From Candidatus Omnitrophota bacterium (GTDB lineage Bacteria; Omnitrophota; Omnitrophia; Omnitrophales; Aquincolibacteriaceae), in assembly GCA_022711115.1 (NCBI GenBank), contig JAKLFP010000011.1, forward strand, positions 1-63,763: a stretch of DNA of 63,763 nt. The letters are read 5' to 3'. Position 1 is the first letter of the stretch. Each line of letters opens with the position of its first letter. Shown here piece after piece: positions 24,559 through 28,332 of the stretch. A program made the position numbers and the translations under genes. The notes beneath the pieces were generated by a model. It worked only from the letters and a program-made list of their open reading frames with translations, searched no databases and was not told the origin of the DNA.

Positions 24559-24575
24559 GTCAGGAGCGTATTCTT

Positions 24576-25676
24576 TTGAGAATTATCGCTATTGCGAACC
24601 AAAAAGGCGGATGCGGGAAGACCACGACGAGCATTAACTTTTCTGCCTGCCTAAATTTTTTGCAGAAACATGTTCTCGTGATTGATTTAGACCCGCAAGG
24701 TCATACGACGTGTGGGCTAGGTGTGAAAACCCAAAAGGGGATGTACACGCTCTATGACCTCTTGAGCCCTCTTCAACAAGCGACACCCTTATTCTCTCAG
24801 GTGATCTGTGCACTGCAGCCGGGCTTTGATCTTATGCCAAGTAATTCCAGCCTTAATGCGCTTGAGGAAGAATTCGGCTTTATGCCGAACTATCACTTAA
24901 AACTGCGGGAACTTCTTTCCCGCATGGCAGAGCAGCATGGAAAGTATGACTTTGTGGTCTTGGATTGTCCTCCCAATCTTGGAATTTTAACCTGGAATGC
25001 TTTAAACGCGGCCGATGAGGTGATGATCCCTGTCGAGCCATCCTTTTTTTCCTTGCATGGTCTTGCGAAGATCTCAGAAACCATTCAAATTGTGAACCGC
25101 AGCCGTGAGACCCCCTTAATGGTGCACGCGCTCCTGACGCTTTTTAATTCGGAAACGAACTTTGCACAGGAGGTATACGAAGAAGTGAGAGTTCATTTTC
25201 AAAGCAAACTTTTTCGCACCATCATCCATGAGCATGTGCTTCTTAGAGAAGCGGCGGCGGCTGGACGAAGCATTGCTCAACATGCACCGCAATCGCAGGC
25301 CTTTCAGGATTATTTGAATCTTGCCGTGGAATATTTGGAAAGGGAGTGGAACCGAAAGTTGCCAGAGAGGGAATTGGGATGGGAAAAAGTCGTTAAAAAC
25401 CATTTCGGGCCGCGCCCTGTATCAGATGGGATTCTTTTCCAGTTTTTGAGCAAAACAGCGTCATCTGTGGAGATTGCCGGAGATTTTAACCACTGGGTGC
25501 CGGAGATGCTGGTTCAAAGGGGACAGGATGGACTGTGGCAGAAGGTGGTTACGGTCTCGTCGAAAACATTCCGTTACAAATTTATCGTGGACGGAGAGTG
25601 GCAAGTAGATCCGAATCAGCCCCTGCAAAAGGAAAATGCATATGGCGGGGTTGATTCCTATGTGGAGCTTGTTTAG
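24576..25676 (+). CDS. ParA-family ATPase fused to a C-terminal glycogen-binding (CBM48/AMPK1) domain
   Basis: 366 residues, TTG start behind AGGAG (24562-24566). Residues 1-265 are a complete ParA: deviant Walker A QKGGCGKTTTS, Walker A' VIDLDPQGHTT, Walker B FVVLDCPPNLG, and the EPSFFSLHGLAKI segment. Residues about 285-366 are an E-set domain of the AMPK-beta/CBM48 type: ASSVEIAGDFNHWVPEM, GLWQKVVTV, FRYKFIVDGEWQVDPNQP. ParA ATPases place cargo (plasmids, carboxysomes, chemoreceptor arrays) using nucleoid gradients; CBM48 domains bind alpha-glucans. The fusion suggests the cargo may be glycogen or another glucan body. It heads a three-gene operon and no ParB is present. Confidence 0.9.
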   Translation: MRIIAIANQKGGCGKTTTSINFSACLNFLQKHVLVIDLDPQGHTTCGLGVKTQKGMYTLYDLLSPLQQATPLFSQVICALQPGFDLMPSNSSLNALEEEFGFMPNYHLKLRELLSRMAEQHGKYDFVVLDCPPNLGILTWNALNAADEVMIPVEPSFFSLHGLAKISETIQIVNRSRETPLMVHALLTLFNSETNFAQEVYEEVRVHFQSKLFRTIIHEHVLLREAAAAGRSIAQHAPQSQAFQDYLNLAVEYLEREWNRKLPERELGWEKVVKNHFGPRPVSDGILFQFLSKTASSVEIAGDFNHWVPEMLVQRGQDGLWQKVVTVSSKTFRYKFIVDGEWQVDPNQPLQKENAYGGVDSYVELV

Positions 25677-25678
25677 CG

Positions 25679-26488
25679 ATGGATGCAACTAAAAAATTGA
25701 TACGCGGGTTAAAAGATGTCTCCTCGATTTTTCAGGAAGAGCTCCCGGAAACGTCTTTCGTGAGGCAGACGCCAGAACTTCAGGTTCTGGGGGTCTCGAG
25801 TCCGCAGTGTGATAACGATGCCCTTTTTCTTAACACCTATTTTGCGTCTAAGATTGCGAGTCCCAATAAGCCATGTTCCCTGATAAGTCTGCTTTCTCGT
25901 TCATCTAGGGCGGATGGTCTGGATAAAAAAGGTTTCGAACCTCTTGGAGATTATTTGAAGCGACATTGTATCTATTGGGATGAACTTCAGAGTAATCTTG
26001 ACACTTTCCAGAATTCTGGAATAAATAAGCCTGTCAAAAGCCGAGATATTTTTTTGGATTTTGAATACCAACAGCTGCTTTATTCAGAGCAGATTGTACG
26101 GCTGCTCGATAAATGGATTATTTTATTACGGCCGACCGGCGAATCTTTGGCCGAAGGTTATAAGCTCATGAAGGCGGGAGTTGCGATCAACCCTCAGGTT
26201 GAATTTTTTGTGGCGCTTGAAGGAGATGCGGAAAACCTCCACGGGAGTGTTGTTTATGAGTATTTTTCAGATTTTGTTTTTCAACACCTCAATTTTAATT
26301 TGACTTGGCTAGGATGGTTGGACCTATCTTGTACTGATCGGAATATTTCATCTACGCTGCATACAGATTTGTTGCTCTATCAGGCTTGGAATGCGAGGCC
26401 TTGCTTGGAAAAATTTGCTTTGGCGGAGTGGATTGAATCGGTTGAAAACGAAAGTCAAAAAAAATCGCTTGAAGGGGTGTCGTCATGA
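25679..26488 (+). CDS. ParA/MinD-like protein lacking the P-loop
   Basis: 269 residues, 2 bp after the ParA gene. Not recognisable by a single motif, but the order of strands follows a MinD/FlhG-type ATPase: VLGVSSPQCDNDALFLNTYFASKIA sits where Walker A and helix 1 should be, then RDIFLDF at Walker B, DKWIILLRPTGESLAEGYKLMKAG at the usual post-Walker-B helix, and VEFFVALEGD followed by LTWLGWLDL. The GKT of the P-loop is replaced (QCDND), so it should not bind ATP in the normal way. I infer a pseudo-ATPase partner of the neighbouring ParA. It overlaps the third gene by 4 bp. Confidence 0.75.
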   Translation: MDATKKLIRGLKDVSSIFQEELPETSFVRQTPELQVLGVSSPQCDNDALFLNTYFASKIASPNKPCSLISLLSRSSRADGLDKKGFEPLGDYLKRHCIYWDELQSNLDTFQNSGINKPVKSRDIFLDFEYQQLLYSEQIVRLLDKWIILLRPTGESLAEGYKLMKAGVAINPQVEFFVALEGDAENLHGSVVYEYFSDFVFQHLNFNLTWLGWLDLSCTDRNISSTLHTDLLLYQAWNARPCLEKFALAEWIESVENESQKKSLEGVSS

Positions 26489-27021
26489 TGATCAATCAAG
26501 AAGTTGTTGATCGCAGTACGATTTTTCATGCGATTCGTGTTTCTGTTCAGGAACTCCATTCGGATAAAGTGTTTATGGAGGATCTTCATGGGTCGCCTTT
26601 TTTATTTAAAAGTCAGGATGCCAAGGTTTGGGTGCGTATCTTTTATCGTGCGATGCAGGACTTTTCCTTGGAGGAATTGCAGCAAGAAATCAAGAAGCTT
26701 TGGGTCCTTATGCCTGTCGATGCGGTGCTTTATTTGTTTTATCCTTCTTTGGATCGTAAACAAATTCTTGATATGAATGGTTTCAGTGATCGCCTCAGCT
26801 TTTTTGAGTTTGCGAATCTTTCAAACTCTGAAAGCTTCCAGTTTGGGATTCGTATTTGCAAGTGGATCCCGGCGATGACGTTAGCATCTCTTCCGGCGGA
26901 GAATTCCAAAAACAAATTGCAACCAAGCATGAGCAAGAGCAGCTTTCTTCAAAAAACGCGATTGAACGCGAAAGAAATCGAAGGTCTTTCCGAGCTTTCC
27001 TTGGTTTTGATGCGCCTCTAA
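26485..27021 (+). CDS. Unknown protein, third gene of the ParA operon
   Basis: 178 residues, ATGA overlap with the pseudo-ParA gene. No signal peptide or membrane segment. A mixed alpha/beta pattern is visible, with a hydrophobic strand DAVLYLFYPSLDRKQIL followed by FSDRLSFFEFANLSN, and a polar linker rich in Ser/Lys before a helical C-terminus (ARLNAKEIEGL-like). I do not recognise the family. Tight coupling makes it a probable third component or adaptor of the ParA-CBM system. It ends 107 bp before the IS element. Confidence 0.7.
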   Translation: MMINQEVVDRSTIFHAIRVSVQELHSDKVFMEDLHGSPFLFKSQDAKVWVRIFYRAMQDFSLEELQQEIKKLWVLMPVDAVLYLFYPSLDRKQILDMNGFSDRLSFFEFANLSNSESFQFGIRICKWIPAMTLASLPAENSKNKLQPSMSKSSFLQKTRLNAKEIEGLSELSLVLMRL

Positions 27022-27117: not shown

Positions 27118-28332
27118 TCATGCAATAAGAATTGTGTCCTTTGGAAGTTCGGCGGATTGATCTTCGATAGGGGCGAGTGGTTTTTGTTTGTGTTGGATGA
27201 AAGTAAAGAGTGCGATGTAAAGGTTGCCCCTGCCCTGGAAGTATCCATACCGATGGGTCCAGTCCCGGACCTTATCGATTAAGCTTTCCATGGAATTATT
27301 CGTATAAATCCAGCGCCAATGATCTTTGGGGAAGCGCAGGTAGGTCATGGTTCTTTCGAATCCGGTTACAAACGAGCGTACCGCCCGAGGTTCGCTGCGA
27401 CGCCACTTGTTTTTAAAAGCCGCGAGATTTTGAAGCAGGGATCGTTGGCCGGTAGCGGTCATGTAAACATCCGAGGCGTCTCGGAGGAAACGTTTTTTAT
27501 TTTTTGAGTTTTTAATGTGCTGACCGGCCGCTTTGACTTTGTGGAACATGCAGCCTTGTTGAGGTGTATGGGGAAAGATCATGGCTGCGGCATTTTCGAT
27601 GGCTTTTGAATCGTCGCTGATGATGAGTTTGGGCGTTTGAAGGCCCCGTCGCTTTAAATCGTTCAAAAGTCTCTCACAGCCCTCCTGAGACTCGCTTTTA
27701 AGGATGACAAAGCCGAGGATCTCGGTGTTGTGGTGTTCGTCCATGCCAAACGCCCAAAGGACGCACCACTGCTGGAGTTCGGCTTCTCTGACTCCGACGA
27801 CCATGCCATCGATAAAAACGTAGGGCCAGCGTTTAGAAATAGGCCGGTTGAGCCAATCCTGGAGGTCGTTTTCAACGCGATGGGTTAACTTCTGGAGAAA
27901 CGTTTTTGAGAACCGGGAGTGGCCAAAAGACTGAATGATCTCCTGCGCACAGGCACCCGATCTGCCGAGGAGGTAGGTTTGGAGCATAGCTTCGAGGACG
28001 CCGTCTTCGACCTGCTGCCAACGGTCGAAAAGGGAGAAGCGGATATCGAGGTTTCTAGCTCTTGGGATGCGGATATCTTCGATGCGTCCCACCACGGTTT
28101 CAAGAGAGCGAGTATAGGAGCCGTTTCTTTTGGTCTTGCGGCCTGGCGCACGCTGGTAAGGTTCGGCCCCGATCAGAAAGTTGAACTCCGTTTGGATCAT
28201 TTGCTGGATGATGACCTTGGTTTCGTTCCTGAGTTTCATCTGAAGATCTTCCCAAAAAAGTGCTCTGAATTGCCGTTTACTTTCAAACCACCGGGTTGTA
28301 AGATGCCCCTCGAAGTTAAGTGTGTTGTGCAT
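27118..28332 (-). CDS. IS256-family (mutator) transposase
   Basis: 404 residues on the minus strand. DDE-type catalytic positions fit FIDGMVV, IISDDSKAIENAAAMIFP and TNNSMESLIDKVRDW; the CMFHKVKAAGQH stretch is the family's conserved C-x2-H region. Length and layout match IS256-type enzymes, which cut and paste through circular intermediates. AAGGAGG precedes the ATG by 10 bases, but the start codon is folded into a hairpin (see 28331-28376). The last few codons and the stop lie outside the inverted repeat, in flanking DNA. The frame is intact, so the enzyme could be active. Confidence 0.93.
   Translation of the reverse strand: MHNTLNFEGHLTTRWFESKRQFRALFWEDLQMKLRNETKVIIQQMIQTEFNFLIGAEPYQRAPGRKTKRNGSYTRSLETVVGRIEDIRIPRARNLDIRFSLFDRWQQVEDGVLEAMLQTYLLGRSGACAQEIIQSFGHSRFSKTFLQKLTHRVENDLQDWLNRPISKRWPYVFIDGMVVGVREAELQQWCVLWAFGMDEHHNTEILGFVILKSESQEGCERLLNDLKRRGLQTPKLIISDDSKAIENAAAMIFPHTPQQGCMFHKVKAAGQHIKNSKNKKRFLRDASDVYMTATGQRSLLQNLAAFKNKWRRSEPRAVRSFVTGFERTMTYLRFPKDHWRWIYTNNSMESLIDKVRDWTHRYGYFQGRGNLYIALFTFIQHKQKPLAPIEDQSAELPKDTILIA

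Follow-up and report, generated by a model that had tools for sequence, protein, structure and literature searches.

Structure of the locus

The window (the whole stretch of 63,763 nucleotides that was analysed, from contig JAKLFP010000011.1 of a Candidatus Omnitrophota bacterium) contains three closely spaced genes, encoding the fusion protein ParA-CBM and two smaller proteins, OrfA and OrfB (Table 1). The sequence-only reading had described a motif-complete ParA with a C-terminal CBM48/AMPK-beta domain, and this architecture is confirmed: a single 366-aa protein comprises a Soj-type ParA ATPase (approximately residues 1–260) and a CBM48/AMPK-beta domain, with the Pfam profiles AAA_31 and AMPK1_CBM both above their cut-offs. 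In its AlphaFold2 model (mean pLDDT 89.4) both domains are confident, while the linker is weak at approximately residues 268–271. The TTG codon is a plausible start, since it is preceded by an AGGAG sequence and most orthologues share the start residue.

Full-length fusions with 38–82% identity occupy the same position in most genomes of the window's order, which excludes chance and assembly error as sources of the fusion. The genes are found just upstream of an mraZ-STAS-rsmH-ftsL-ftsI cell-division cluster, and this gene order is conserved in the window's order. Glycogen genes are not neighbours at the window locus, where the surroundings are cell-division genes (mraZ, rsmH, ftsI). A Mutator-type transposase gene (27118–28332, minus strand; PF00872, E 7.8e-63) separates OrfB from a zinc-ribbon coiled-coil gene. 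It has no counterpart in the relatives compared and is therefore probably a recent insertion into the conserved operon.

Table 1. Features of the ParA-CBM locus (positions in the window).
Feature	Position	Strand	Remarks
Probable ribosome-binding site AGGAG	24562..24566	+	9 bases before TTG start; from sequence
ParA-CBM ORF	24576..25676	+	366 aa; TTG start at 24576; stop codon ends 25676
Soj-type ParA ATPase domain, residues 1-260	24576..25355	+	deviant Walker A QKGGCGKTT at residues 9-17
Leu222 codon, equivalent of DNA-binding Arg238 of M. xanthus ParA	25239..25241	+	alignment; PMC12462528
CBM48/AMPK-beta type E-set domain, putative glucan-binding, residues 285-364	25428..25667	+	profiles, model
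Trp307, equivalent of AMPK-beta1 W100	25494..25496	+	invariant, 84/84
Lys335, equivalent of AMPK-beta1 K126	25578..25580	+	K/R throughout set A (45/45); K, R or Q in set B
Trp342, equivalent of AMPK-beta1 W133	25599..25601	+	invariant, 84/84
OrfA, candidate ParA-CBM activator	25679..26488	+	269 aa; starts 2 bases after the fusion
ParB-type ParA-activating motif of OrfA, KKLIRGLKDVSSIF, residues 5-18	25691..25732	+	motif residues from PMC12462528
OrfB	26485..27021	+	178 aa; overlaps OrfA end; accompanies OrfA throughout the order

The ATPase domain

The AAA_31 match extends over residues 2–179 (E 3.4e-47). No ParA motif is missing. Lysines K10 (the signature residue) and K15 (Walker A) and the catalytic aspartate D39 are kept in all 84 aligned sequences, as expected of the ParA/MinD deviant Walker A. 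These sequences comprise set A (45 sequences, alignment A5) and set B (39 further Omnitrophota loci), and some are only 33% identical to the window protein. The ATPase half shares 35–41% identity with solved Soj/ParA structures, with a TM-score of about 0.92 by target length. The best 50 matches in a structure search with ParA-CBM were all ParA-type, so the CBM is assigned from sequence profiles and the topology of the model.

In M. xanthus ParA, the substitution R238E abolishes non-specific DNA binding (PMC12462528). The equivalent residue of ParA-CBM, Leu222, was mapped through alignment to structure 8ray, the numbering of which is offset by 19 from that of the published ParA, and which we infer to be M. 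xanthus ParA from the numbering match (L150, G151, L152). Position 222 is non-basic throughout the window's family (L/S/A/M/Q/V/T). It is basic in many other lineages, with K/R in 19 of the 45 sequences of set A and 31 of the 39 of set B. Position 224 is K/R in 79/84 sequences and may contribute a shifted basic patch. At Leu222 the window protein thus lacks the conserved basic DNA-binding residue of ParABS ATPases, and this change and others near it argue against nucleoid binding in the window's lineage. The sequence-only reading had suggested that the protein could tether glycogen granules, or a glucan-coated body, to the nucleoid; sequence evidence supports its glucan side, while its nucleoid side is weakened by the replacement of Arg238 with Leu.

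The CBM48/AMPK-beta domain

The C-terminal domain matches AMPK1_CBM at residues 293–364 (E 5.5e-12; 46.2 bits against a cut-off of 26.8) and CBM_48 at residues 277–342 (both Pfam). In the model, confident beta strands form a sandwich from residue 280 to 364, where an E-set fold had been anticipated after residue 280. When the family profile was compared with solved structures, chains of the AMPK-beta CBM (e.g., 4yef and 1z0n) were matched at E ~1e-10. Six AMPK residues, which we take to be its glucan contacts (W100, K126, W133, L146, T148, N150), were traced through the aligned set. Both tryptophans persist in all 84 aligned sequences, as the proposed glucan binding predicts, and the K126 equivalent is basic throughout set A but Gln in 11 of the 39 further Omnitrophota sequences. 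The positions of L146, T148 and N150 are occupied by Y356, G358 and D360 in the window protein, with Asp or Asn at the last of these across the aligned set. With a profile score above the curated cut-off, an E-set fold, the pair of stacking tryptophans and the lysine, the domain is assigned to the CBM48/AMPK1_CBM type.

Distribution and phylogeny

A search for the combined ParA and CBM48 architecture across genomes showed that the fusion recurs, in 134 of 235 Omnitrophota genomes among the matches listed. The matches, each of which spans both domains, were counted by hand; the count includes members of the window's order in which the CBM was matched separately, and a few genomes (for example G071 and G081) taken as fusions from a long open frame, and leaves out nine further genomes with long open frames. 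Of the 39 genomes examined from the window's order, most carry the fusion. Full-length fusions beyond Omnitrophota were found in Zixibacteria, Nitrospirota-labelled genomes, Acidobacteria gp5 (Acidobacteriota), Myxococcales (Myxococcota) and Methylomirabilota, and on two Pseudomonadota-labelled MAG contigs, amounting to at least six named phyla, although MAG labels can be wrong. One ParA-type match (33% identity, query residues 2–324; G208:C1:1055887-1056849) falls within a 2,641-aa open frame.

A canonical soj-parB pair is found elsewhere in the window's genome, after mnmG. In a tree built solely from 77 fusion ATPase domains and 17 Soj paralogues of Omnitrophota genomes, a single branch (SH-aLRT 100) separates the fusions from Soj; the tree shows this separation and does not date the origin of the fusion. 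Identity of ParA-CBM with the chromosomal ParA was rejected, given the soj-parB pair and the division in the tree. Domain searches found no ParB domain in OrfA or OrfB, so that the adjacent ParB of ParABS systems is missing here.

OrfA and OrfB

The two partner genes stand directly behind the fusion at nearly every locus of the window's order, and OrfA is likewise found there in most loci from other phyla. With a mean column identity of 19% across phyla, OrfA evolves fast, its N-terminus being the exception. In that region R9 and L11 never vary, and L7, G10, S15 and F18 hardly do; the motif reads KKLGRGLEDISHLFLS in other genomes, and versions from other phyla read KKLGRGLEDISHLFLSS. In Acidobacteria and Methylomirabilota the motif stands at the head of shorter proteins. 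L7-R9-L11-V14 of OrfA has the spacing of L11-R13-L15-L18 in M. xanthus ParB, with Ser at the equivalent of I19; mutations of the ParB residues L11, R13, L15 and L18 impair ParA binding or activation (PMC12462528). The genuine ParB of the window's genome starts MIMKKALGKGLSALIPDS, and OrfA starts MDATKKLIRGLKDVSSIF. The pattern L-x-R/K-x-L-x-x-hydrophobic occurs in 33 of 35 OrfA orthologues. A scan of 1290 ORFs of at least 150 aa gave 45 matches, nearly all of them OrfA copies; two of the four matches listed are clearly unrelated.

Residues 1–30 of OrfA have low pLDDT (59–67), consistent with a predicted disordered, basic N-terminus. ATPase activators have been described as modular, with a basic N-terminal peptide grafted onto an interaction domain (PMC7993993). 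OrfA matches this recipe in its disordered N-terminus, its basic and hydrophobic motif and the position of its gene beside the ATPase, and is a candidate activator of ParA-CBM. The rest of the protein has a predicted FlhG/MinD-like fold (FlhG by Foldseek, E 8.6e-9). FlhG and FleN resemble OrfA in this predicted fold, whereas OrfA has the ParB-type N-terminal motif, and no P-loop (Walker A) or GKT motif of the FlhG/FleN/MinD ATPases is recognisable in the aligned OrfA sequences. A profile-profile comparison with the ParA family was weak (P 0.046). The kinship of OrfA with the MinD/ParA fold is weakly suggested by the structure search and by CbiA/AAA_31 matches of outgroup OrfA proteins (E 5e-5, below cut-offs).

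OrfB has no Pfam match. Two outgroup proteins at the OrfB position have sub-threshold matches to NucS_C (E 0.015 and 0.051), from which a nuclease-like fold may be guessed. One member of the order contains a single 304-aa ORF (L026:4117-5031) to which the profiles of OrfA and of OrfB both match, and which is possibly an OrfA-OrfB fusion.

Glycogen genes

Glycogen genes accompany the fusion, as its proposed glucan binding would lead one to expect. The window's genome has two GlgA, a GlgB-like 777-aa ORF with two CBM48 domains, GlgP and GH57. GlgA was detected in all 39 members of the window's order, 37 times above the curated cut-off. Among the matches listed, it is present in 129 of 134 genomes with the fusion and 86 of 101 without (Fisher p 0.004, kinship ignored), which is a weak test since GlgA is very common across the phylum. 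In families f12 and f24, no sampled genome contains GlgA, and the fusion is likewise absent. Searches for glycosyltransferases and phosphorylases also returned open frames of 6,000–13,000 codons (G021, G038, G011, and contig C22 of G000), consistent with the giant proteins already described in this phylum.

Gene neighbourhoods provide a stronger link to glucan than this co-occurrence. GH57 enzymes mostly act on alpha-glucans. Among 39 loci from other Omnitrophota families, 12 have a GH57 gene two places upstream of the fusion, and the genomes concerned hold only 2–4 GH57 matches each. At one other locus an alpha-glucan phosphorylase gene lies three places downstream (TIGR02094, 399.6 bits against 191.7). 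Stand-alone CBM proteins were also observed: in the window's genome a 102-aa AMPK1_CBM/CBM48 protein is encoded directly beside glgA (L050:4430-4738, minus strand), and small CBM ORFs are found in most relatives, several of them adjoining glgA.

Relation to known systems

The cargos known or proposed for ParA/MinD ATPases include plasmids, chromosomes, carboxysomes, flagella, chemoreceptor clusters and divisomes. Carbon stores are not among them, and one in a bacterium would be novel, whether as cargo or as platform. Soj/ParA of chromosomal ParABS systems resembles ParA-CBM and OrfA in its ATPase domain and in the L-x-R/K-x-L-x-x-hydrophobic motif of the partner. ParA-CBM differs in its C-terminal CBM, the lack of an adjacent ParB domain, its separate clade and, in the window's family, the loss of the Arg238 equivalent. 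McdA/McdB and the wider set of ParA/MinD positioning systems likewise combine an ATPase with a small adjacent partner that has a charged N-terminus, and act on non-DNA cargo, as is proposed for ParA-CBM (PMC8262871, PMC10241942); neither source names glycogen. In ParA-CBM, by contrast, the candidate cargo-binding module is on the ATPase, not on the partner. McdA contains SGGQGKT instead of KGGxGKT (PMC9178275), and membership of ParA-CBM in the McdA group was rejected on this motif.

AMPK-beta and other CBM48 domains share with ParA-CBM the fold and the equivalents of W100, K126 and W133. They differ in that the L146, T148 and N150 positions of ParA-CBM are aromatic, Gly and Asp/Asn, and that its domain is joined to a ParA. 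STBD1, a eukaryotic glycogen tether, also links glycogen to cell machinery through a starch-binding domain, as described in the accessible parts of PMC7648618 and PMC4076837. Its domain belongs to another family (CBM20) and it has no ATPase, so the likeness is an analogy only. In the literature searched, which did not extend to subscription papers and preprints, no paper joining ParA to AMPK1_CBM/CBM48 was found, and none among the hits listed linked ParA to glycogen positioning; the parts are of known kinds, while their combination and the proposed glucan cargo are undescribed there. In E. coli, glycogen gathers at the old pole and pushes the nucleoid aside, and the accessible part of the source makes no mention of a dedicated positioning system (PMC12706056).

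Proposed function and alternatives

We consider it fairly probable, from sequence comparisons and structural models, that ParA-CBM, OrfA and OrfB form an alpha-glucan-directed system of the ParA/MinD type. The evidence supports an ATPase apparently aimed at alpha-glucan with a ParB-like candidate activator; positioning is the proposal built upon it. ATP-bound dimers would hold two CBMs and would therefore bind glycogen with avidity. The N-terminal peptide of OrfA would then trigger ATP hydrolysis, upon which the ATPase would be released or redistributed. Repeated binding and release could place, spread or share a glycogen deposit, or localise OrfA and OrfB there; the exact job may be sharing deposits, spreading them or recruiting the partners. 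Where a basic Arg238 equivalent is kept, as in most lineages, the nucleoid could serve as the track, whereas its loss in the window's family makes the glucan itself, or a surface bound by OrfA/OrfB, the more likely platform. The seat of the OrfA peptide would differ, which counts against a glucan-directed system. The original reading of the fusion is thus partly supported, and is extended by a partner gene with an activator-like motif that it had not included. A widespread glucan-binding ParA would make the inheritance of a glycogen store directly testable.

For the window's family, it is tentatively suggested that glycogen itself is the working surface, with ATP-driven binding and OrfA-triggered release taking place on the deposit. 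The loss of the DNA-binding residue, and the presence of a C-terminal glucan module where MinD has its membrane anchor, point in this direction, and the suggestion is given a modest chance. If true, glycogen would join the nucleoid and the membrane as a third type of platform for ParA/MinD ATPases.

AMPK-beta is thought to read the carbon store, and ParA-CBM could likewise be a glycogen-sensing regulator of division, in which glycogen is a signal, not cargo, and a MipZ/PomZ-like ParA switch acts at the division site. Its conserved place before the division cluster in the window's order would fit this role, as would the coupling of glycogen mass to division asymmetry reported for E. coli in the accessible part of PMC12706056. 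In other families and phyla, however, the fusion has no division genes beside it, and ParA-CBM has neither a division gene fused to it nor one as a constant companion. A division regulator is considered unlikely. The E-set domain could also be a protein-protein or dimer-regulating module with a CBM fold that does not bind glucan, the cargo being a protein assembly. CBM48 domains are often structural in GH13 enzymes, and both the altered L146/T148/N150 positions and the 11 sequences with Gln at the K126 equivalent could be explained in this way. This appears quite improbable given that both stacking tryptophans are retained in 84/84 sequences, at identities to the window protein down to 33%, and that GH57 and phosphorylase genes lie nearby in other families.

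The same neighbours, and a match of ParA-CBM to the CBP_BcsQ profile, could indicate a BcsQ-like regulator that gates or recruits enzymes of glucan synthesis or breakdown at the glycogen surface without positioning anything. The BcsQ equivalog nevertheless scores 76.9 bits, far under its cut-off of 157.85, and the BcsQ motif is RGGVGTT (PMC9178275), whereas ParA-CBM keeps K10 and K15 throughout and has a ParB-type activator motif in the adjoining gene. Membership in BcsQ was rejected on score and motif, and no bcs genes were recognised among the neighbours of the fusion loci inspected; a regulator of this type is considered quite improbable.

A candidate second type of partner

Immediately upstream of ParA-CBM, most other Omnitrophota encode a protein of about 190 aa (L145:3359-3919, with homologues in L140-L179). 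It was recognised at 28 of the 39 loci, with a few more added by eye. Its N-terminal motif, typically IYEHLAKIYL or IYDHLAQVYL, is followed by a lysine-rich stretch, one predicted membrane helix and a further 120–140 residues or so. It may represent a membrane-anchored second type of partner that replaces OrfA in these lineages, in which case one mechanism may not fit all. The two types, ParB-like OrfA and the membrane-anchored protein, would offer two testable versions of one ATPase. A separate lysine-rich protein with a weak match to EF-Tu domain 2 (L145:5866-6273 and homologues; E 0.0016, below cut-off) is encoded downstream, at most four genes from ParA-CBM, in 21 of the 39 loci.
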